This document shows positions 10,161 to 27,917 of a stretch of DNA of 27,917 bases, in pieces. The translations under genes and the position numbers were made by a program. Positions within the stretch are counted from its first letter, which is position 1. Each line of letters starts with the position of its first letter. Origin of the DNA: Ectocarpus siliculosus (Eukaryota > Sar > Phaeophyceae > Ectocarpales > Ectocarpaceae); NCBI GenBank assembly GCA_000310025.1, contig FN649758.1:1711287-1739203 (forward strand). The letters run 5' to 3'. The notes below the pieces were generated by a model. The model was not told where the DNA came from and did no database searches. It saw nothing but the letters and a program-made list of their open reading frames with translations.

Positions 10161-10580
10161 GGCCAACTCCCCTGTTGTGGTGTATCCGGATTGGGATACC
10201 GTTTCGGACGGCTCGCGACCTTTTCATCTTTGCTGTGAAGTCGCAGTGGGAATCTCGAACAAAAACAGCCGGATGACTTCATTCGTCCCATCGTTTTCAT
10301 CAATCGGGCTACTTTGGACTCCGAACGTCATCGGACGCCCCTCGATCTCGAGGCGGGTAGCATCGTGTGGTGTATCAAACGACTTCGCGGTTACTTGTGG
10401 GTACGAAATTTCGGATTTTTCCGACACGGCAGATTTCTTGAGCATTTTGCCAAGGTGGGGGAGAGCAATGCCCGTGTTCAACCTTGGCTAGAATCCCTTA
10501 CCGCCTCCAATTATACTCTCGAGTTTCACAAGGGTTCTGCGAACGGCAACACTGATTTCCTCTCGCGCCTTCCGACCGAT
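10160..10580 (+). pseudogene. Ty3/gypsy RNase H, catalytic acids lost
   Basis: Sequence corresponding to the retroelement RNase H follows the RT. The first catalytic box, normally CDAS-like, reads CCEVAV near 10230, so Asp is Glu, and the frame then shifts. From about 10314 the frame is clean: RHRTPLDLEAGSIVW, then KRLRGYLW, where the family has the conserved E and the strand before F.DH. The usual DH pair is replaced (FFRHGRF). The tail NGNTDFLSRLP (ending about 10575) is the standard end of a Ty3/gypsy RNase H and fixes the assignment. No activity is expected. Confidence 0.85.
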
Positions 10581-11112
10581 GCTGCCGAATGTGACCGATC
10601 TGGTCGCAGCCGCTGGACACCGGCCGACGACGCGGAGACCATGTTTTTGATCTGTTCTTGTGGCCTTACGCCTTCCGGCCATCGGGCCGCTGGTGTTGGC
10701 TCGTCCCGACTTCCGTCGGTCTTGGGTGGGCTTGCCCCCTCTATGGCTGACTTCGTCGATTTCTGTAGGTACGGTCCGCGTCTCCCGCCGCCAGGCCTCT
10801 CGCCTTCGTCTGGCGTCTGGAATATCGCTCCCTGGCCGTCCACGACGCTCGGCGTTTCGCCTCCTTCGAGAATGCGCAATCGGCCTCCCAACATTTGGGC
10901 CGATTCTCTGCATCAGTCTTCGGATGATGTTATTGCTCTAGAGCCCGGGTCTCCGTCGACCGTCCCACCGGCTGCCACACCACGTCTGACCCTGGATCCT
11001 ACCCAAGTGATTTCCACGCGGACTCGTCGCCGTACGGGAGTTGTAGCAGGACAGCCACTCCCGCCTGTTGATTATGATTTACCTCGTTTTCGTGCTTCCC
11101 ACACGGATTTCT
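10581..11112 (+). pseudogene. Retroelement linker between RNase H and integrase
   Basis: The reading frame continues without a stop from RNase H for about 175 codons. It is Pro/Ser/Gly-rich and includes DRSGRSRWTPADDAE straight after SRLP. I recall a similar acidic linker in a protist gypsy family but cannot verify it. The homologous frame resumes at 11637, so this linker is split by the insertion at 11113-11636. The function of this section is unknown. Confidence 0.6.
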
Positions 11113-11594
11113 ATTGTGTGCCTTTTTCTGTCTCTTATGCCTTGTTATTCTCGGCCTGGTCCCTTTTTGTCCTCGCTCTTTTTCGTTTTCTTTTCTCTTT
11201 CCTTCCTGTTTCCTTTTATTTATTTATTTTTTCTATTTTTTCTCTTTTTCTCCCTGTTTTCTCTCTTTTTCTGTGTCAGATGGCCTTGTCTCTGCCTGTG
11301 TTGTGAAGTACCAAGATTGAAACAGCGGGGTGTACGTCTTTCTCTCTGGCCTGTGATGCTGACTCCTAGTCTCAGTTGGTACCTCGCATAGCGCGCAGAG
11401 GGAGCGGAGGACTCTAGAGTATCTGTCGTTGATATCTATTGACTTGGGGACCCCTTGGGGCCAGTTTATTTGAGTGTACCTTTTTAGGGTCAGTTAGCCT
11501 GTGACCACGGGAATCGACCGCGTCAAGTGTTGGATCAGTACGGACATATGGAGGTACTGGGTAGAGAGAGATCGAAACGGTTTTTAATGTGAAG

Positions 11595-12640: not shown

Positions 12641-13280
12641 CAGACAAATGACGCCAACGCCACGGGTAAAATGTGCACCATATAGACACGGAGAGGCCAA
12701 TCAGATAGAAACATTCTGGAAAGCGGCGACAGCACGAAGAGGTGTGCGTGATTCCCCGAAAGCCCAAATCGTTTTCGCGTTGTGCAAGCTACTGAAGCCC
12801 TCTGCCCATACAGTTTTTACGGCGACAACATCACCTGAACGCAACGTATCCAATAAAAGCTGGCCCAAGGCACGATGCACTCTCAACATTCTCCCACCCA
12901 ATAGTAGGGTGCCCACCCGAAATAGGCTTTAGTACAATGCCATTGAGGATTACTCCCGTCCACCGGAACACGTATGTGAGAACATCGAATTTCACCCCGA
13001 ACTGATTGGAACGCACGCCCATTGTTGGTAGGGTTTGTGACTCAATCGAAGTGCACATCAGGGAAACGATACGGGCTCACAGCCCAACAGACCCCCAGCA
13101 TACCACTCACATCCCTGTCCGATGTTCAGCGACCACAGGCAACAAGCCACCACAAGAGAAACGGGCAACATCATCAACACGTTCAACCAACCGACGACAA
13201 TCACCAAAGACATTAAATTTCGCGTTCATTTTTTGTTACTCTCCACCGTGACCAACCGACCCATCCTAACCGCACCCACC
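12641..13280. other. Spacer between retroelement and minisatellite
   Basis: A plus frame carries on from the retroelement to 12932 (204 codons from 12318), but its last ~95 codons have no recognised similarity. The 3' end of the element and any LTR should lie here. I found no polypurine tract or TG...CA repeat matching the upstream side. The stretch 13080-13280 is CA-rich and leads into the minisatellite. Confidence 0.4.
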
Positions 13281-13715
13281 CACTGTTATATCACACGATG
13301 CAACATAGCCACTGTTATATCACACGATGCAACACACCCACTGTTATATCACACGATGCAGCACACCCACTGTTATATCACACGATGCAACACACCCACT
13401 GTTATATCACACGATGCAACACACCCACTGTTATATCACACGATGCAACACACCCACTGTTATATCACACGATGCAACACACCCACTGTTATATCACACG
13501 ATGCAACACACCCACTGTTATATCACACGATGCAACATAGCCACTGTTATATCACACGATGCAACACACCCACTGTTATATCACACGATGCAACACACCC
13601 ACTGTTATATCACACGATGCAACACACCCACTGTTATATCACACGATGCAACACACCCACTGTTATATCACACGATGCAACACACCCACTGTTATATCAC
13701 ACGATGCAACATAGC
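13281..13715 (+). repeat. Minisatellite, 15 units of 29 bp
   Basis: Fifteen head-to-tail copies of a 29-bp unit (CACTGTTATATCACACGATG plus nine more bases) start at 13281 and repeat every 29 bases to 13687. Most units end in CACACC. Units 1, 9 and 15 end in CATAGC, and unit 3 has one A-to-G change. There are no spacers, so it is not a CRISPR array. Because 29 is not a multiple of three and the unit has no stop on the plus strand, all three plus frames are open, which explains the repetitive ORFs here. Those are not evidence of a protein. Confidence 0.97.
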
Positions 13716-15090
13716 CACATCCACATATTCCTAACCCCAAAGCCAACCCTCCTTGTTTGAGGTGACGGCTCCACTGCACACCCACGCTGCCGACCTGGCT
13801 TGAGAGGGCGAGACACACTCGGAAAAATAGTGGTATTATATAAGTAAAGAATCAGCCTGAAATACTATCTTGTAACAACAATAGACTATTAAAATGATTC
13901 GCATAACAATAGTGTATCCTATGCATCAAAGCATCACAATGAAATAAAATGATAATAGAAGCCAACGCCCCCAAGGGTTCAGGAAGAATGTCTCACCACT
14001 ATTGTACCGCCACACACCACTGCGGACGCCACCAACAACAAGGACAACATCACAACCCAAAAAAACACAGCAACAACATTCGTATAGTCTAAAAAATAAC
14101 CAGCGAGACAGGACTAAGGGAGACTGGACTGCACTTCAACACCGACCAGTAGGCCATAAACATGCATGTTAGGCTGACAACAATCATCCGATGGCTCGAC
14201 CCCCCTGCCCTTTGGCACACTTTTCTGACGTGGAGGAATTCAACAGCTACAGGAACGGTTTAACCAGTGCCGATGGCACTATTCAACTATCAGGAACCTG
14301 AGGTGCATCAGGTGTGATCGAAACACGTCACCAAGAATGCATACGCCTAAAAGATATGCATTGCATTAGCCTATCAGAAAGGATTTTACCCAACCCCAGT
14401 GGTCTGCTTTGCTCTGTTACATATGGTACAACGGTAGCACACAATTATTCCCGCTTGTTGGGTTCATGTTGCCTGCCCCAAGCGAAAGCAGAGCGCACAT
14501 CAACCTCAAGACTCTAGGCTAGATGGGTACGAACCCCTATAACACTCGAGCTGTTGCCCACCATTCCATTTTCCCACGGAGATTCCTTGTCCCGCCGGTA
14601 AAGATATAAAGTCAGTGATGCGCATAGTCAATCTCCTGTGGTTAAAACCTGTGTGGTACACGCCAGCCGAGTAGGTGCGCAACACAAGTGAATCGGCCAC
14701 AACAAAGAACATCCAACGAGCACTCTATCATCCGAGCAACCCTTTCACATTTATTGGAAACAAATAAAAACTCTGCAGAGAGAAACCCTTCAACCGCTGT
14801 TCGCGGATGGCGACAGACAAGAAAGCAGGGTGTCTAATTGATATACCCGCCTACAGTAATTCCTTTCTGCCACTGGAGGTGGAAGATGCTTAGCTGTAGC
14901 GGAGGGGTCATGATTCTTCCATAAAAACACCCACTTTGGCATGCCCGTCAGGGAACAGGCTTAAAACCCGACTTTTGAGCCTGGCAATGTGACAACAATC
15001 AATCGACATAGTCACCTGTCAACAACTATAGAGGCGAAGAGGAGACAAGTGGAACTCCTAAACCCTTCCCCGTACGCTCTGTCCCGGAGG
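13716..15090. other. AT-richer intergenic stretch
   Basis: No supported gene. The section 13830-13970 is clearly richer in A/T and includes a TATATAAG-like string near 13837, but nothing downstream justifies calling a promoter. The remaining ORFs are under 70 codons. The right part, up to 15090, lies beyond the poly(A) signal of the minus-strand gene at 15097-16614. Confidence 0.5.
14266..14285. repeat. Short hairpin carrying the GGCACTATTCA motif
   Basis: AGTGCC-GAT-GGCACT followed by ATTCA. The sequence GGCACTATTCA matches the motif repeated near both ends of the transposon at 19477-20887. It may be a solitary remnant of a related element, but it is short enough to be chance. Confidence 0.4.
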
Positions 15091-16620: not shown

Positions 16621-18974
16621 GAAGGGGGGGCATCCTCGTCCGGGGGCAAACAAGCGCTAGTCAAGGGCGCCCACGTATAGCACATCCGAAAGCGGCGATC
16701 GGTCAGGCGTGCGAGGTTACCGTTTGCACTGACCGTGCAGCCGTAGGCATACTGTAGTGAGGTGTGTGCTACATAGGCCGGCTCACAGGTACTACAAGGG
16801 GCACGAATACTGTTCGGGCGGGATATGAAGACATCGGGTGAATGGTTGCAATATCGTCAGTGGTGCGGGTTCATGGGCGAGGAATGTTTTCGGTCACAAC
16901 ACAGGGGTGAGAGAAGGCACAAGAAAAATGCTACTTGACAAGCGATGATCACTCAAAAACCGTAACCCTCAAGGCATGCGATGCCATGCATGCCATGCAG
17001 TGCGCGTAGACTGTGACTAGTCCCCATGCGCACACGTTGCAACTGCTCAACACAGCAGTACCACCTAGGAATGTTCCCTCTGCTCAAGAACAAACTGCGG
17101 TGCCGTCCTACCGCACTATCAAATACGTCTCTTTACTTTGATCGTGATTCCATGCGTGTAGACGTTATAGTTTGGCACAGGGGAAATAGAATAGAACGAC
17201 TGCATCTTCATGACTTCTAGTTTCATGCTCAAAGGGACTCGAAGGGATGGTCTACCGTCGATCTACCGTAAAAGGAGGTTGACCGAACTACATAACGAAC
17301 CCAGGCCAAGCTCAAACGAAAACGGAAACATTACGAATGAGATGAACAAATAAGGGTGTCCAGTCATGCCGTCAAGTTCCCCACGAGAAAGTCTGTTTCT
17401 GCGGTACAATAGTGTGATGGTACAAATAAACGTAGGTCCCCTTACCGCCAATAGGGTTTCAGGAAACACAAGACATACACATACACATGCAGGTGGGGCC
17501 TCTGAATATCACGTTGCCTTTTCTGTCCCCCCCCGCCGGGGAATGATGAACTTCGACGGAACAATCGGCGGGAAGAACCTTTGCAAAATAATTCAGGTCG
17601 CCCCAGAGATATTCGACCACACGGAGTATGATCGAATACCGCTCTCGCACGACGTGATACACCAAGAACAGTTTCTGACTGAAGCTCTGCCACGATGTCG
17701 CGCTAGGGCGGCGTTAATCAATGCGAAAAAATGGGGTTGACTCTAGCACTTGGGCCGGAAGGGCGAGAAGAAGTCCGTGTCCTCTCCGAAAGGGGACGGG
17801 CTCGATGTGCAGAAAATAACAGTCTCCCATGTGATAGGTGATGGTATGTAGCAGAAGAAGCACTTTCAGGAGATGTAATATAAAGGGAGAATTCCTTTTC
17901 ACGCTTGAACCAGACCTAGAAATGCGCTTTTTATGCTGCTCTTGGATACCGGTACATCGATGGCGGGGGTGCGCACCACAGGGTGGGGGCGGGGATGAAG
18001 GCCACCAGGGAATATTTTCCTCGATATCCCCTAGGTATTTCTACTGCTGTTAAGAAACAAAATACTCCTTTCACGTTCACCTGACACTTTCGGCTCGTCT
18101 GAGTTTGTCCAACAATCAATCGTTCTGTTGCTAGGCGTGACTGGCGCGCTACAGGGTGTTTGGGGTGTCAAAATGTCGCGATATGAACTTCCGTCTGTAC
18201 GAAGCGAATGCATCTGTACTAGACACCTCAAAATTGTTTTGCACTAGAATTTGTCTTTCCAGATCTGTAGCAGATTGTGAGTAAACTTGTTTCGTGTGCC
18301 ATCATGCACCGGCCGACCCACAGATCGTAATCAGCCCTTTGTTTGAACGAGCATGCGAACGGTGAACTTTTGCGAAAATACTTCTGATTATCGTCTTGTG
18401 CCCTATATTTTCAAATTCAAAGCTTCATGTTTTTAACGCCTCTTCCCAAGACTTCCTCTTCTGTACTACTGAAACCGGTAGGCGAACCCCGGGAAGGTAC
18501 ACCATGTGCGAAAAGTAACGCCTCCTGAATTTTGTTGTAAGGCAAGGGGCAACATGCTTTAGGTCCAACGGCCACAGTCATGCCAGAGTCCATCGCCAAA
18601 CCCGTAAGGGGTCAAGCCAAATCAGAACGACCTGTAATATTTCTGCATTCCGCCGACCAAACCAACCCTCACTAACACATCCTGGCGGTGTGAGCGTACA
18701 CAATAAAAAGCAGACAGTACGTTCATCCCAGATAGTGTATCATCGCACGTATATATGGCGAGGGACGCTGCATTGTCGGGTCACCAAGTAGGAGACCGTC
18801 ATCGCCCATCTACGTCACAAACTAGCTTGCGGGGGGTGATCCCGGAAAAGCGGGGTTCCCCCCCTGAGCCTGTTGCTGCAAATTGACTTCGTACGGCACT
18901 AGGTTGAAAGACGAACAAAAAAAACACGAGCGTCGCGAAAACTGCATCAAGCAGCTTGGCGTGTGAGAAACGAC
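16621..18974. repeat. Dispersed repeat, copy B (partner at 300-2822)
   Basis: Direct, collinear, diverged copy of 300-2822. It begins at a G run followed by GCATCCTCGTCC and ends at GTGAGAAACGACA. Section 18005-18295 does not align with copy A and is shorter. As in copy A, substitutions in the reading frames compared are mostly non-synonymous and frames do not persist, so it is treated as non-coding. It sits between two minus-strand gene candidates, and its left edge coincides with the loss of the reading frame of the gene at 15097-16614. Confidence 0.85.
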
Positions 18975-19521
18975 AATTGGGGCTTACACCCTCTTCCCCC
19001 TCCGTCGTCCCCCCTTCCAAACAACTCCTATCGAATAAGGAGATCTTCTGCATACGGCAAGCCTCTATTCACCCTCGGTCGCGAAAAAATCGAAGCCCAC
19101 CTGCCCTCCTTCGTCTTCGAGCCCGGGGCCCGTGCCGTCGTGGCCCTTCTCCACACCAGGTGCGCTGGGGCGTATAGATAGAGAATAGGGGAGTGAAGGG
19201 ACGGGCTGTCGGCCGTGTGTGCCACACCAATGGTGGACGTGTTTGGTGTAAGGGTAATCGATAGTGACGAAGTCTCGCCTCGGCGAGATTTTTTGACAAA
19301 ATCATATCGGGAAACTCTTGGCGCAGGTTGCGTGTAAATGTGGCGTCGCCGTGTGCTGAAGCCAAGGACGTACACAGATGACTTGGCATAACTCAGATCG
19401 GGTCGAAGGGGCATGGCAGACAGGTCGATATGCTCCATCCAAAACATGCGAGGGAAAACCACAACAGCAACAGGTACAGCAGGTGTCCCGATATAGTGCC
19501 GGTATGTGTATACCGGGCACC

Positions 19522-19610
19522 GGCACTATTCAGAATTGTGGCTGAATAGTGCCAACGGCACTATTCAGAGCCTGAAAATCCCTCTATAGTGCCGGCTTGG
19601 CACTATTCAG
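19522..19610. repeat. Left subterminal motif array
   Basis: The 12-mer GGCACTATTCAG occurs on the plus strand at 19522-19533, 19557-19568 and 19599-19610, and inverted at 19542-19553. A partial inverted copy (TATAGTGCC) ends at 19593. Adjacent inverted copies can form hairpins. Subterminal repeats like these often bind transposase. Confidence 0.85.
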
Positions 19611-20737
19611 GACTGTTCGACTTCAGAGTGCAGCGCTTGCGCTTTGGGGGGCTGACAGAGTACCAAACGAACGGTATTTGGATCAATCGTGAGGTGGGCG
19701 ATGTGGGCGGGCTTCAGTAAGTTTCGTGAGGCTCTTGGACTGTCGAAAACACGGCACTGGTCACATTAAAATTAGTTTGATTGACCAGAGATTTGTTGCA
19801 CAGCAGTTGTTCTCTTCCCACCTCAGCGCAAGCACTCGCTAGTGAAACGTTGCTGCTGCCTTTCAACCTTAGACCGTGCTGCCCGATAAAAGTTCACGTC
19901 GCTATCAAATTATTATGCGTTGTATTGCAAGAAGGTCGTAGCACTATTCAGGCAACCTCAAAGGCACCCTCGACAGCGAACGAAAGACGCTCATGCACGC
20001 ATCCGATGTACATTTGGAGGTAGAACATGGATGGATGTAGTGTTCCTTACACGAGCACACAAAAGCAGATGCAACCTAAAAAACGGGTGAAGAAGATGAC
20101 GAACTCCCCTGTTCCTTCGATAAAAAGCTAGAGAGAAGACCAAGCCTTCAGCAGCAAGAAAAACGAATGGCCAACCAAAAGACGTCAGTCTCAGTGCGGT
20201 CAAAAACAGAAAATATTTGTTTCTCAAGGCCGTGAGAGGGTGTCATGGGGGAGGCTGAGCTATTCTCAAGACAGAAATGGTAGCAACAGAGAGAGGAGAA
20301 CTACGTGACTGCCAAGGCTTACTACTTCGAAGTGTTTTCATCCTTCCTTAGAATTATTTTATTTACCACCACTACTACACTCTTCACTCATATTTTTCAT
20401 CTCTAGATTCTGCGCCCCTGCGGCGTTTGTTGTGAGGAACGTCATCTCGCTCGAAACTCTTGTTGTTCCCCTCAACGCCATATTTTCCCGGCATCATCAC
20501 TGCTATCCTTGGCTATTTTTTCCATATCCTTCGTCACTACCACCATCTTCCTTTTCGCTCGCCTTACTACTGAAATCCCAGCCTATTGGTGGAACCCAGT
20601 CGATCGGTATACCGTGACATTTGAAGACGTCACGCGTACCGAGAGAAACCAAGCTACTTGTAGCTCGAAAGGAAACCGTCTCCGAATCCTGTTGGCGTAG
20701 AAGGCTTGAGGCGAAAAAAGGCTGTGTGTGGGTTCGG

Positions 20738-20873
20738 TAGTGCCTGTACCGGCACTATAGCGGGCAGCCCTCAATAGTGCCAAACCGGCACTATTCAGGC
20801 CTGTGTCTGTGTCGAGAAATTTTACCGGCACTACTGTATACCGGACGTTGGCACTATTCAACCGGCACTATAT
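20738..20873. repeat. Right subterminal motif array
   Basis: Counterpart of the left array: GGCACTATAG at 20751-20760, inverted TCAATAGTGCC at 20771-20781, GGCACTATTCAG at 20787-20798, GGCACTATTCA at 20850-20860, and GGCACTATATC running into the terminal inverted repeat at 20863-20873. Shorter or diverged copies lie between. Confidence 0.8.
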
Positions 20874-21239
20874 CGGGACACCTTCTGTATGCCAAGTAAA
20901 CAGCACGCCAGTAACGAAGCGTACCTAGGGTCACCGGCGGTGGAGCTGGTTGAGAGAGCGCCGCTCCCGTCGCTTGTTTCTCCGTCGGTGGAGACGGTGC
21001 TGGCACCACCATTGGAACCAGCCTCGGACTGCAGCCCATCCCTCGTTAGCTCCTGCACATAATGCTCGTATTGAGCTAGCTTCGCCTCGGGAGCGCTGGA
21101 ATTTCGTGGACACCGCAGGTTGAAGAAGAGGCATACGCAATATATTGGGTGATGGGACGTCTGGGACCACGAACAACACATTGACAAAACTGGCGCAAAA
21201 CTCGGAATCAGGAGACCCAATCAGGGCTGGAACAACCAT

Positions 21240-22469
21240 TCGGCGGATTTCGACGTTTTGCTATCACCCCTTACTGACATCAGTTTACGTAGATTCATTC
21301 TAACATTAAAACTTCGAGGAACTAAATCCCCGAGGGAAAAACGTCTTCAGGCAGGCCTACACGCTGTACGTAATGCACGAAAGAGAACACCAGGCATCCA
21401 TATTTCGTCCACGCCAGAACACGCTCTTCGCCAAATACGTTTGCTCACCTCCCTGCTAAAGTTCGCGCGAACCCACCGGTCTTCCACGAGCGAATTACCC
21501 AGTCTCTGTCACGTCCGCTGTCACGTTGACGTTCGACTTTGTCAGCCATCTCCCTAGCGAGGCATCGATGACGCACAAGCCGCGGCAGGAATACGCAGGG
21601 TCAGAATGACGATCGTTTTCGTCATGCCTGAGCAGGTCCAAATTTCGTTGCCTACCTTACCACTCAACTTTCCGATATAGACTATGTATCAGGGTGCAGT
21701 TGTAATAACGATATGGTGAATGAGTCCACTGCACACGCTACGAAACCCGGCGAGCAGAACAATGTTTTTAGAGAATGATACACACAAGAAACAAATCGCC
21801 CCAGCTGCCGCCGATGTCCGGGGAATACCTTGGCGGCAAGTAGCACAACACGTGTTGGCAGGAATTCCAAACTGCGAAGTTCCTTAGTGTGGCGGTAGAT
21901 GCAATTCCAAACACCAAGGAGGGGCGACAACTATTGCCGCTAGGGAAGATCATCACAACGATAGTTGAGAGGTAGACGAGATGTTTAACTTGTTGTCGTT
22001 GACAGAAAACCCCTGGATAATTCCAAGAATACTACAGTTCTTTAGTGATTTCCCGGGGAATATCAAGGTTTTCAGAGCGCTCATAGAAGGGTGCACGAAC
22101 AATAAACAATTTCCGCACCTAGGCACCCCATTCCATATTTTGTAGAGTGATAGGTGAGGGAGAGGGTACGAAGTGACCCCCCTCGAAAAACCGCCATACA
22201 ACAAGAGTAGACTGAATTTCAATAAAAGGGACACGATACAATTGTATAATATGGGGGTTTCTTGTGCATCTTTTTGCCCCCTAGCCATGTGCACTCGTGC
22301 ATATGCGCCGCGACTGCGCGCTGTACTCCGCACCACACCTAGCCGACGAGAGGGAGAGCATGATCAGCGTACCCTCGAGGGGGGGCAGGCCTAGCACAGG
22401 CTGCTGCGGCGCAAGACTACAGACAATAGTGCGTTCAGATCGCAGTAGAAGTAGACCCGGAGTCCAGTG
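21240..22469. other. Region without a supported gene
   Basis: Open frames include 99 codons at 21258-21557 (plus, Arg/Lys-rich), 82 codons at 21682-21930 (minus) and 127 codons at 21953-22336 (minus, with a hydrophobic stretch). None is recognised, and no splice model holds them together. Upstream exons of the interrupted gene at 19028-21220 could lie here. Confidence 0.4.
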
Positions 22470-23290
22470 AAGAGGGGGAGAGGGAAGTGAGGAAGCGAAT
22501 GAGAGGGGTACCCAGGTGTGCGGGATTACATCTTTCCTGCACCCTTCGGCTGATTACATTGTTTGCCAAAACCCGAAGTTCTCTCGCGTCCACACACACA
22601 GTGCCATTGCACGTCGCATGAACAGAGATCGATGCGAGGAAAAGGGAAGCTTCCTTTTGCACGAAAGCAAGTGCGGAAACCTCGCTGCTGATGGCCCGGC
22701 GATTAAGTAGCGACCAACAGCTTTGACGTTCGCTCGAATACGACGACATCTCTCGGGTGTCAGATCGGGGCGCGACAACCGACAAGGGGCACATGCCTCT
22801 CTGACCGGGCCTGCTGACATTGCAGTAGGACGGTCTGCACGGACAATCGCCACACCTTCCGCTTCTACGTGGATAAACTCGGCGATAGAGTAGTCATGCT
22901 GATGGAGCAATGCCCGAAGCGAATATCGCCAGTATCATAGCCTTTGGTGAGTTTGGGGGCACTCCTTGCTCTGGTATACATATGGTATCGATTGCAGCTT
23001 TTGCCTGGACACCTCGTCTCGGCTGTCATTGGGAACGTGACCCGTGGGTCGAACTTGGCTCATTTTTGGAGGGAACTGATGGCGCAGCCAACATATGAGT
23101 GCAAGCTCATGGGAGATTTCGAGGGAACGCACGCATGAATACTCCGCTGACCGTCACGTGCAGCCAAACGACCTCGTTGGCCAACACCAGATGAATCGCC
23201 AACGTGTCGATGTGTTCAGGTTGACACGATTGGTCAGTCCAAAACGTATCCTAGTGCGTACTCGAAAAGGGAGAGAGATCGCGATTTATT

Positions 23291-23440
23291 GTCGCGACAC
23301 CACCTACCAAGGTCTTATAAAAACGTGGGGTCAGTGGTTGGCCGTCAAGTCATTTCGGTGGTCCCTCTTGCTCCATAGCGTTCTTCACAGCAAGGCGGAT
23401 GTATTTGTTCGTCAAGAATTGGATAGAGGTTGTAATCAGT
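23291..23440. repeat. Hyperconserved 150-bp core of the tandem units
   Basis: This core starts GTCGCGACACCACCTACC. It recurs at 25388-25537, 26568-26717 and 27749-27898, all exactly 150 bp, with a single difference between units 1 and 2. The 130 bases just upstream differ at about 15 positions between the same two units. It is open in at least one frame on the plus strand in all copies (containing AVKSFRWSLLLHSVLHSKAD). It may be a functional exon or RNA, or a gene-conversion patch. Confidence 0.75.
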
Positions 23441-24194
23441 AGTTAGGTGCGAGTAGGCGCCCGCGGTCTCCGAACATTTGCCATGCGGGCGGAATTGGCA
23501 AGTCCTGGTTTGGTGAGTGTCGAAAACCACTAGGGTGGCGGCGACAACCATACGTAACTACAGAGGAGGATCGATCGGAGCAGTAGGCACGACATGAGCG
23601 CGGAATCTGGGTGCTGATGGCACGACTATCGCGCAGCGACCAACAACTTTAATGACGAGAAAAGAATCTCCATTTTTCGCATACCGTAGCTCGTGCAGGA
23701 GGGCGTTGACGGTGGCTTGGAGCTGGAGGTGGTGTGGTTGTAATGCTGTACATTGTGAGGAGAATATTGAAGTGGTCACTGGCCCTTGAAGGGCCCATCT
23801 ACCCGAGACAGGAATCAACGGCTGCCTCGTGGAACAGGGATGTCCCACTCGTATAGCAGAGACACTGTAGCGTGCCGCAAAGGGTTGTTCGACCGGGTGT
23901 GGATGTTCTTGGTTGCATCTGTAGATGCAACCCACCCGCACCACGCCTCTGTCGCCGCGACAGCGGAGTAGTGAACGGGTGCACATTGCAGAATATTTTG
24001 CAAGTGCCACCACCGCAGTCACTGTAAGGGCAGGTTTGTTTAAGGCGTAGACAAAGGCGAAGACAATGAACAAACCGAGTTGATTTGAAACGATTCTTCG
24101 AATTGCCATGCCGTATATGTTGGGGGTACCCGGGAAAGAATTTCGTAGTACGGGGCCCCTCAAACGAGAGAAGGGGTCGCATATGCCACCACTC
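23441..24194 (-). other. Unit-1-specific segment with a 218-codon ORF
   Basis: The segment begins at the base after the conserved core and ends where unit 2-like sequence resumes (GTTCACATCTCG). A minus-strand frame from 24214 to 23558 (218 codons) covers most of it, long enough to notice but with no recognised domain. It contains a hydrophobic stretch (LGLFIVFAFVYAL) near 24080-24120. Part of the segment (about 23610-23660) resembles the left part of the units (GCTGATGGC...GCGACCAACA), so it may be a rearranged, diverged piece of the repeat instead of a foreign insertion. Confidence 0.4.
23911..23932. repeat. Short perfect hairpin
   Basis: GGTTGCATCT-GT-AGATGCAACC: a 10-bp stem with a 2-nt loop, inside the unit-1-specific segment. 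No following T run and no known role. Confidence 0.6.
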
Positions 24195-24621
24195 TGTTCA
24201 CATCTCGTGTTCACAGAGTCTTGCGTGCAAGAAGGACGGAAAGTAGTGCACAGACAACGAGCAGGATTGACACATAGAAGGACCCTCCTAGTGGCTTCCG
24301 AGTCTCAGGCGCTGACAACAAGTAGAGTTTATCCCCCCCACCCCTTTTCTCTGAAAGGCGGGGGAAAGGAGAGGATATCCGGTACCGTACTTGTCGCGTC
24401 GCTAATAGGAGAGAATGGTAGGAACTATTTGGAGGCCTCGGCATCTGAGACTACTGCATGCAGTAAGATTGGTTCCCTTCACGGGAGAAAATAGCATCCT
24501 TGGTTGCTGTTTCGACGGAAGAGAGAAAGACCGTATTATTGGGAGAGAGGCAGAGGCACGATAGAACGACCGCCGAAATGTGTCTGCGAAAAACGTGCCC
24601 TCTCTCTGTCTTCGCTCGGGA

Positions 24622-25959
24622 GAGGAGGAGAGAGCAGTGAGAAGCGAATGAGAGGGGTACCCAGGTGTGCGGGATTACATCTTTCCTGCACCCTTCGGCT
24701 GATTACATTGTTTTTGCCAAAACACCGTAGATCTCTCGCGTCCACATTGCACGTCGCATGAACAGAGATCGATACGAGGAAACGGAAAGCTCCCTTTTGC
24801 ACGAAAGCAAGTGCGGAAACCTCGCTGCTGATGGCCGGGCGATCAAGTAGCGACCAACAGCTTTGGCGTTCGCTCGAATACGACGACATCATCTCCCGGG
24901 CGTCAGATCGGGCCGCGACTACTGACAAGGGACGCCTCTCTGACCGGGCCTGCTGACATTGCAAACCTTCCGCTTCTACGTGGATAAACTCGCTGGTACA
25001 ATTCGAACAATGCCCAAAGCGAATATCGCCAGTATCATAGCCTTTGGAGTGTTTGGGGGCACTCCTCACTCTGGTATACATGTTGGATCGATTGCAGCTT
25101 TTGCTGGAACGCGTCTCGACTGTCATTGGGAACGTGACCCGTGGGTCGAACTTGGCTCATTTTTGGAGGGAACTGATGGCGTAGCCAACATATGAGTGCA
25201 AGCTCATGGAAGATTTCGAGCGAACGCACGCGTGAACACTCCGCTGACCGCCACATGCAGCCAAACGACCTCGTTGGCCAACTCGAGATGTATCGCCAAC
25301 GTGTCGACGTGTTGAGGTTGACATGATTGGTCAGTGCGAAACATGTCCTAGTGCGCACTCGAAAAGGGAGAGGGATCATGATTTGTTGTCGCGACACCAC
25401 CTACCAAGGTCTTATAAAAACGTGGAGTCAGTGGTTGGCCGTCAAGTCATTTCGGTGGTCCCTCTTGCTCCATAGCGTTCTTCACAGCAAGGCGGATGTA
25501 TTTGTTCGTCAAGAATTGGATAGAGGTTGTAATCAGTGGTCACGTTTCGTTGTGTTCACAGAGTCTTCGCGTGCCAGAGAGAGAAAGTAGCGCACAAACA
25601 ACGAGCAAGGTGGACACATGGAAGGACCCTAGTGACTTTGCGAGCCTCAAGAGCTGACAACAAGTAGAGAATACACTGCCACCCACCCACGCCTTTCCTT
25701 TCGAAGGCGGCGAAAAGGAGAGGATATCCGGTACCGTCCTTGTAGGTAATGAGAAAGAGTGGCAGGTACTATTTGGGGACTTGGGCACCTGACACGATTG
25801 ATGTACGTGCAGTAAGATATATTCCCTTCACGGGAGGAAATAGCATTCTTGGTTGCTGTATGGAGGGGAAGAGAGGGAGACAGTATTTATTGGGAGAGAG
25901 GCAGAGGCATGATAGAAAGGGCGTCTGCGGGAGTTATGCTCTCGCTGTCTTCGCTCGGG
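24622..25959. repeat. Tandem array unit 2 (hybrid)
   Basis: The left part (to about 25010) matches unit 1. The right part (from about 25040) matches units 3 and 4, at about 96% up to 25400 and about 99% from there on, by eye. It is therefore the junction between two unit types. The longest minus-strand ORF here is 196 codons (24536-25126) and is unrecognised. Compared with unit 1 it has indels of 4 and 28 bases upstream, which breaks any shared long frame. Confidence 0.85.
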
Positions 25960-27139
25960 CTTTAGGAAAACTAAACTAAATGCAATTGGAAAGATAACTG
26001 TAAACGTTGAGTTTCGTTTGTCTCCCAGAGCAAAACCATTGTATCGTTTTCATCGTTTGCTGGGACGCCTCGTGTCGGCTGATATTGAAAGAAACCCTAT
26101 TCCAGTAGGTCGGTCTATACGGACAATCGCCAAACCTTCCGCTTCTACGTGGATGAATTCGGCGAGACTAGTCAAGCTACGGAGCAACGCCCGCAGCGAA
26201 TACCGCTAGCATTGTAGCCTTTAGAGTGTTTGGGGGCACTCCTCGCCCTGGTATACATATTGGATCGATTGCAGCTTTTGCTGGGACGCGTCTCGACTGT
26301 CATTGGGAACGTGACCCGTGGGTCGAACTTGGCTCATTTTTGGAGGGAACTGATGGCGCAGCCAACATATGAGTGCAAGCTCATGGGAGATTTCGAGCGA
26401 ACGCACGCGTGAACACTCCGCTGACCGTCACGTGCAACCAAGCGACCTCGTTGGCGAACTCGAGATGTATCGCCAACGTGTCGACGTGTTGAGGTTGACA
26501 TGATTGGTCAGTGCGAAACATGTCCTAGTGCGTACCACTCGAAAAGGGAGAGGGATCATGATTTATTGTCGCGACACCACCTACCAAGGTCTTATGAAAA
26601 CGTGGAGTCAGTGGTTGGCCGTCAAGTCATTTCGGTGGTCCCTCTTGCTCCATAGCGTTCTTCACAGCAAGGCGGATGTATTTGTTCGTCAAGAATTGGA
26701 TAGAGGTTGTAATCAGTGGTCACGTTTCGTTGTGTTCACAGAGTCTTCGCGTGCCAGAGAGAGAAAGTAGCGCACAAACAACGAGCAAGGTGGACACATG
26801 GAAGGACCCTAGTGACTTTGCGAGCCTCAAGAGCTGATAACAAGTAGAGAATACATTGCCACCCACCCACGCCTTTCCTTTCGAAGGCGGCGAAAAGGAG
26901 AGGATATCCGGTACCGTCCTTGTAGGTAATGAGAAAGAGTGGCAGGTACTATTTGGGAACTTGGGCACCTGACACGATTGATGTACGTGCAGTAAGATAT
27001 ATTCCCTTCACGGGAGGAAACAGCATTCTTGGTTGCTGTATGGAGGGGAAGAGAGGGAGACAGTATTTATTGGGAGAGAGGCAGAGGCATGATAGAAAGG
27101 GCGTCTGCGGGAGTTATGCTCTCGCTGTCTTCGCTCGGG
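25960..27139. repeat. Tandem array unit 3 (1,180-bp period)
   Basis: Head-to-tail unit with an exact 1,180-bp offset to unit 4, and to unit 2 over 25540-25959. Differences from neighbours are a handful of single bases (for example near 26838, 26954 and 27021). Its left end (TTTAGGAAAACTAAACTAAA) is the second type of unit start, absent from units 1 and 2. No credible gene is seen; ORFs are under 90 codons. Confidence 0.9.
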
Positions 27140-27917
27140 CTTTAGGAAAACTAAACTAAATGCAATTGGAAAGATAACTGTAAACGTTGAGTTTCGTTTG
27201 TCTCCCAGAGCAAAACCATTGTATCGTTTTCATCGTTTGCTGGGACGCCTCGTGTCGGCTGATATTGAAAGAAACCCTATTCCAGTAGGTCGGTCTATAC
27301 GGACAATCGCCAAACCTTCCGCTTCTACGTGGATGAATTCGGCGAGACTAGTCAAGCTACGGAGCAACGCCCGCAGCGAATACCGCTAGCATTGTAGCCT
27401 TTAGAGTGTTTGGGGGCACTCCTCGCCCCTGGTATACATATTGGATCGATTGCAGCTTTTGCTGGGACGCGTCTCGACTGTCATCGGGAACGTGACCCGT
27501 GGGTCGAACTTGGCTCATTTTTGGAGGGAACTGATGGCGCAGCCAACATATGAGTGCAAGCTCATGGGAGATTTCGAGCGAACGCACGCGTGAACACTCC
27601 GCTGACCGTCACGTGCAACCAAGCGACCTCGTTGGCGAACTCGAGATGTATCGCCAACGTGTCGACGTGTTGAGGTTGACATGATTGGTCAGTGCGAAAC
27701 ATGTCCTAGTGCGTACCACTCGAAAAGGGAGAGGGATCATGATTTGTTGTCGCGACACCACCTACCAAGGTCTTATAAAAACGTGGAGTCAGTGGTTGGC
27801 CGTCAAGTCATTTCGGTGGTCCCTCTTGCGCCATAGCGTTCTTCACAGCAAGGCGGATGTATTTGTTCGTCAAGAATTGGATAGAGGTTGTAATCAGTGG
27901 TCACGTTTCTTTGTGTT
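27140..27917. repeat. Tandem array unit 4, cut by window end
   Basis: Near-identical continuation of unit 3. Single-base changes are visible (an extra C near 27428, T to G near 27830). The array probably continues beyond the window, so the copy number is unknown. Confidence 0.9.

Follow-up and report, generated by a model that had tools for sequence, protein, structure and literature searches.

The DNA stretch analyzed here, the window (27,917 nucleotides of the Ectocarpus siliculosus genome, G000:C33:1711287-1739203), contains at positions 19477 to 20887 a non-autonomous DNA transposon of 1,411 bp with inverted ends. Its terminal inverted repeats lie at 19477 to 19503 on the plus strand and at 20861 to 20887 on the minus strand, and they are bordered by the two TAs of the target-site duplication (19475 to 19476 on the left and 20888 to 20889 on the right; no strand is assigned to the TAs or to the element). 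Counted with the TA, the arms are 29 nt long (20861-20889 for the right arm) and 97% complementary, and the element harbors subterminal repeats of GGCACTATTCAG. Its longest stop-to-stop frame measures 102 aa, and a Pfam scan of this frame gave no match and found no transposase. Other features were seen elsewhere in the window: a 700-bp repeat at 2124-2823 and 18278-18976 (82% identity), part of which occurs again at C33:1917 kb (79%); an RNase H-like domain of reverse transcriptase (PF17917) at 10239-11306, indicating a retroelement that is apparently frame-broken; and a minisatellite at 13277-13718 with a 29-bp unit in 15.2 copies (97% matches).

We then searched the whole assembly (189 Mb on 492 contigs), in which the chlorophyll-binding family gave 87 matches, marking the host as a photosynthetic eukaryote, and the Rubisco large chain none, the plastid possibly not being included. 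A DNA search with positions 19000 to 20600, for which the best 40 of 441 candidates were scored, gave at least 65 matching pieces among those listed when the window was included, and at least 64 beyond the window element, some pieces belonging to one and the same copy. The terminus pattern of both inverted repeats recurred in the genome, with 156 matches at up to three mismatches (72 forward and 84 reverse) and none for the reversed control. Twelve family copies were fetched from among the matches listed. Eleven of them measured 1,456 to 1,530 bp and the remaining one 1,259 bp; a TA was present at the left end in 10 and at the right end in 9 of the 12, and their longest stop-to-stop frames ranged from 106 to 214 aa. 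The window element was 97.1% identical to the consensus of these copies (gaps left out), and since 11 of the 12 exceed it in length, internal sequence was apparently deleted from the window copy after its insertion. No Pfam transposase was matched by seven translations, namely, the longest frame of the window element, one frame of L025, locus L023 in full, and four frames from related elements. DDE_3 (PF13358), the one DDE family searched, had no genome match at E 0.001 among the 11 candidates scored. The inverted repeats are those expected of a non-autonomous Tc1/mariner-like element, as is the TA target-site duplication, matched by one TA at each of three empty sites. The TA target and the CAG...CTG ends measured for the element are typical of the Tc1/mariner superfamily. 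By its ends and target the element would thus be Tc1/mariner-like and non-autonomous, a superfamily that we only infer because no transposase with matching ends was found.

DNA searches with each flank led to three paralogous stretches with the same flanks: relative A (L001 3860-4954, C33:1904859-1905953); relative C (L003 8530-9624, on contig C216), which is nearly identical to A; and relative D (L001 9142-9874, C33:1910141-1910873). All three cross the insertion site uninterrupted, with one TA and no element, reading CAACAGCAACACGTAT where the window reads CAACAGCAACAGG/TAT. Both the precise insertion at a TA and the existence of an empty site, as claimed in an earlier note on this DNA, were thus borne out, the latter by three paralogues within one genome (two on C33 and one on C216). 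Alignments of the window with the relatives were 74 to 75% identical (gaps counted), against 97.1% for the element and its consensus, and the insertion therefore looks younger than the local duplication as judged from these identities. Where the two contigs were compared, C216 was nearly identical to C33 and may be an alternative haplotype. Similar blocks also recur inside positions 22435 to 27917 of the window, and both C33 (near 1901-1905 kb) and C216 carry them again.

The earlier note had proposed that excision of the element reveals a gene. The underlying arithmetic holds: positions 21220 to 19028 of the minus strand, minus the element and one TA (1,413 nt), leave 780 nt open, which gives 259 codons plus a stop; the join falls within ...LLACCLLGI/PVAVVVF.... 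Because the window copy was apparently shortened after insertion, the divisibility of element plus TA by three is irrelevant to this join. The upstream half ends nine sense codons into the element rather than seven codons inside the inverted repeat, its stop (20860-20858) falling immediately beyond the 29-nt arm. In none of the three relatives, however, was the interrupted frame conserved. Starting from the G of GDPR/GDAR, 164 codons are open in the window, 42 in A, 27 in C, and 42 in D, and the 259-codon frame was seen in the window copy only, so that the claim of a broken 260-codon gene is not supported and a conserved gene of this length was rejected. As to homologues across the junction, whose absence had been named as a refutation, the DNA of all three relatives runs across the junction, but the protein frame is not maintained in any of them. 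A Pfam search with both halves gave no matches. The downstream half (19028 to 19474, minus strand), open in the window copy only and not conserved as protein, yielded in a protein search one match besides itself at E < 0.05, namely, D, with 44% identity and two stops. When the whole empty-site window was dinucleotide-shuffled 200 times, frames of at least 259 codons arose in 12 of the shuffles, and 3 of the 500 shuffles made from the local 3.1 kb gave such a frame. The empty-site window itself contains two other frames of at least this length, with 355 and 263 codons. The local joined frame is mildly unusual compared to chance, as would be expected if a real exon contributed part of it.

Such an exon would lie at 20925 to 21095 on the minus strand, where we infer a coding core of 171 nt that is Ser/Thr-rich in its 3' part. 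Its length is 171, 135, 135, and 168 nt in the window, A, C, and D, respectively, all divisible by three. In the claimed frame, pN/pS was 0.47 for window versus A (p 0.044), 0.43 for window versus D (p 0.004), and 0.47 for A versus D (p 0.030); these p values are one-sided Fisher values, uncorrected, for a short exon and for copies that are not independent, C nearly duplicating A. The claimed frame was the sole one of six to stay below 0.5 in all three comparisons. A plain nucleotide alignment gave 0.64 (p 0.11) with A, 0.65 (p 0.13) with C, and 0.43 (p 0.004) with D. Antisense coding was rejected, as no antisense frame fell below 0.5 in all three comparisons (one gave 0.49, 0.59, and 0.98). 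Length differences between window and D amounted to 3 at 20943 inside the exon; past the exon to 1 at 20917, 1 at 19454, 1 at 19440, 28 at 19381, 2 at 19298, 8 at 19205, and 10 at 19033; and, in the poorly aligned part before the exon, to 1 at 21235, 3 at 21183, 14 at 21117, and 5 at 21098. D is the only paralogue to cover most of the downstream half. Window and A or C differ by one base in length at about 21151 and at 19438-19440, and they align poorly below about 19390. No homologue of the exon was found in Pfam (searched with four exon copies), the PDB, or viral contigs, and no neighboring exons were recognized around the locus. Plus-strand frames at 20778-21059, overlapping the exon, and at 21153-21554 match the relatives too.

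The coding pattern stops at a donor-like AG/GTACGCTT (AG/GTACGC), 36 nt before the insertion. This putative 5' splice site (20919 to 20924, minus strand; first intron base 20924) scored 8.6, the median of 27 introns of 160 to 1,668 bp predicted in 17 of the 18 kinesin loci retrieved, from which the matrix was built, so that the matrix is fitted to the introns it is compared with. The next best minus-strand GT between 21400 and 20880 scored 4.8, and 22 of the 3,595 GTs on both strands of the window reached 8.6 or more. The donor GT is kept in A (10.6), C (10.6), and D (7.8), and the insertion TA occupies positions 36-37 of the implied intron. For the 3' splice site, TTCCAG at 21096 to 21097 (minus strand) is one of several candidates. 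The D alignment is interrupted just upstream of it, and it was absent from the acceptors scoring more than 1; no single acceptor was identified, the matrix from 27 introns being too weak for this. Positions 21140 to 21290, just upstream of the exon, share about 90% identity with A and C, above the conservation of the exon itself, and no frame accounting for this was found. Such conservation is odd for an intron and counts against an intron reading.

The join also completes a hydrophobic run of about 20 residues, previously likened to a type I membrane protein. As a conceptual translation the run holds up, its best 19-residue Kyte-Doolittle mean being 2.40, but a membrane protein was not supported. 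The empty-site window has 241 frames of 60 aa or more; 33 of these had a 19-residue mean of at least 1.6, and 6, the joined frame among them, reached 2.40. In the claimed frame, pN/pS of the segment was 1.44, 1.51, and 0.91 for window versus A, C, and D, respectively, and past the segment it was 0.93, 0.87, and 1.09. Where the segment ends downstream, each of the three relatives shows a one-base difference, and D has two more inside it. Although hydrophobic in A and C, the segment is thus not conserved as a transmembrane segment in the claimed frame, and a transmembrane protein was rejected because this frame lacks constraint (0.91 to 1.51). Frame 2 of the segment gave ratios of 0.52, 0.52, and 0.29 (p 0.22, 0.30, and 0.12) from few changes, so that pN/pS of the segment may be low in another frame. 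The hydrophobic run is most likely an intron read as protein.

Taken together, we consider it fairly probable that a TA-inserting element has landed in an intron, within a small gene that was duplicated locally, and does not break a long membrane-protein gene. A non-autonomous Tc1/mariner-like element would have jumped into the window copy of the duplicated stretch, probably after the duplication, and landed 36 nt downstream of the putative 5' splice site on the minus strand. If positions 21095-20925 form a coding exon, its end in AG/GTACGC would place the element within the following intron, with which it would be spliced out, so that the protein would stay the same. Intron or intergenic DNA that is open by chance in the window copy would then account for the hydrophobic run and for the 136 codons that follow. 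A gene broken inside the hydrophobic segment, which would itself be coding, e.g., as a C-terminal membrane anchor, seems to us improbable. The segment is indeed open and hydrophobic in the window, A, and C (19-residue means of 2.40, 1.76, and 1.85), the insertion introduces a stop after nine codons, and A and D share a later stop. However, besides the pN/pS of the segment in the claimed frame and the restriction of the 259-codon form to the window copy, D is out of frame through the segment, C stops directly after it, and the tail shared by A and D, in an alignment read by eye, carries six base differences in four codons, all four of which change the amino acid.

More serious, if still rather unlikely, is that the local duplicate is dead or never coded, the exon being left over from a gene whose living (or formerly living) copy is elsewhere and the transposon lying in functionless DNA. 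Exon-region matches at E up to 0.01 (six of the seven listed) are confined to C33 and C216, the seventh lying on C15 (E 0.33); an in-frame stop interrupts the exon in D; no other exon was recognized; the surroundings are repeat-rich; and two inverted fragments of the exon unit adjoin D. Against this, the window, A, and C keep the frame intact, their exon lengths are divisible by three, the donor site is kept, and the exon pN/pS of 0.43 to 0.47 argues for coding. The two fragments (RKAQYDQHVEELSRDGLQQEAGSIG and APEAV*AQCEQYVQELNRGG; L001 8940-9160, C33:1909939-1910159) look as if the exon unit beside D had been duplicated and flipped. Only very faintly credible is a lineage-specific, locally amplified gene whose charged repeat unit, PEAKxAQYEQYVEELSRDG, would undergo shuffling and inversion as a phase-symmetric exon, with the transposon near its donor altering its splicing.

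The locus has little significance beyond itself. It provides a clean example of a long frame and a membrane-like segment that can arise by chance when an element is excised from an intron-rich genome, and it shows that such frames can be tested against empty-site paralogues of one assembly. The locus is most likely an ordinary transposon insertion, and such insertions are common. According to PMC12477816, 34.1% of transposable element bases in Ectocarpus are intronic, these elements make up 20.1% of intronic sequence versus 2.4% of coding sequence, 81% of genes carry at least one genic insertion, and autosomal introns have a median length of 524 bp. The same source describes non-autonomous Mariner-Tc1 elements of Ectocarpus, TcMar-N1_Ec32 among them, which like the window family have many copies without a transposase of their own, whereas the window family measures about 1.5 kb and has subterminal repeats, compared to 217 bp for TcMar-N1_Ec32 (PMC12477816). 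As in an ordinary intronic insertion, the window element lies just past a donor-like site and leaves the exon core untouched, splicing at this locus being predicted.
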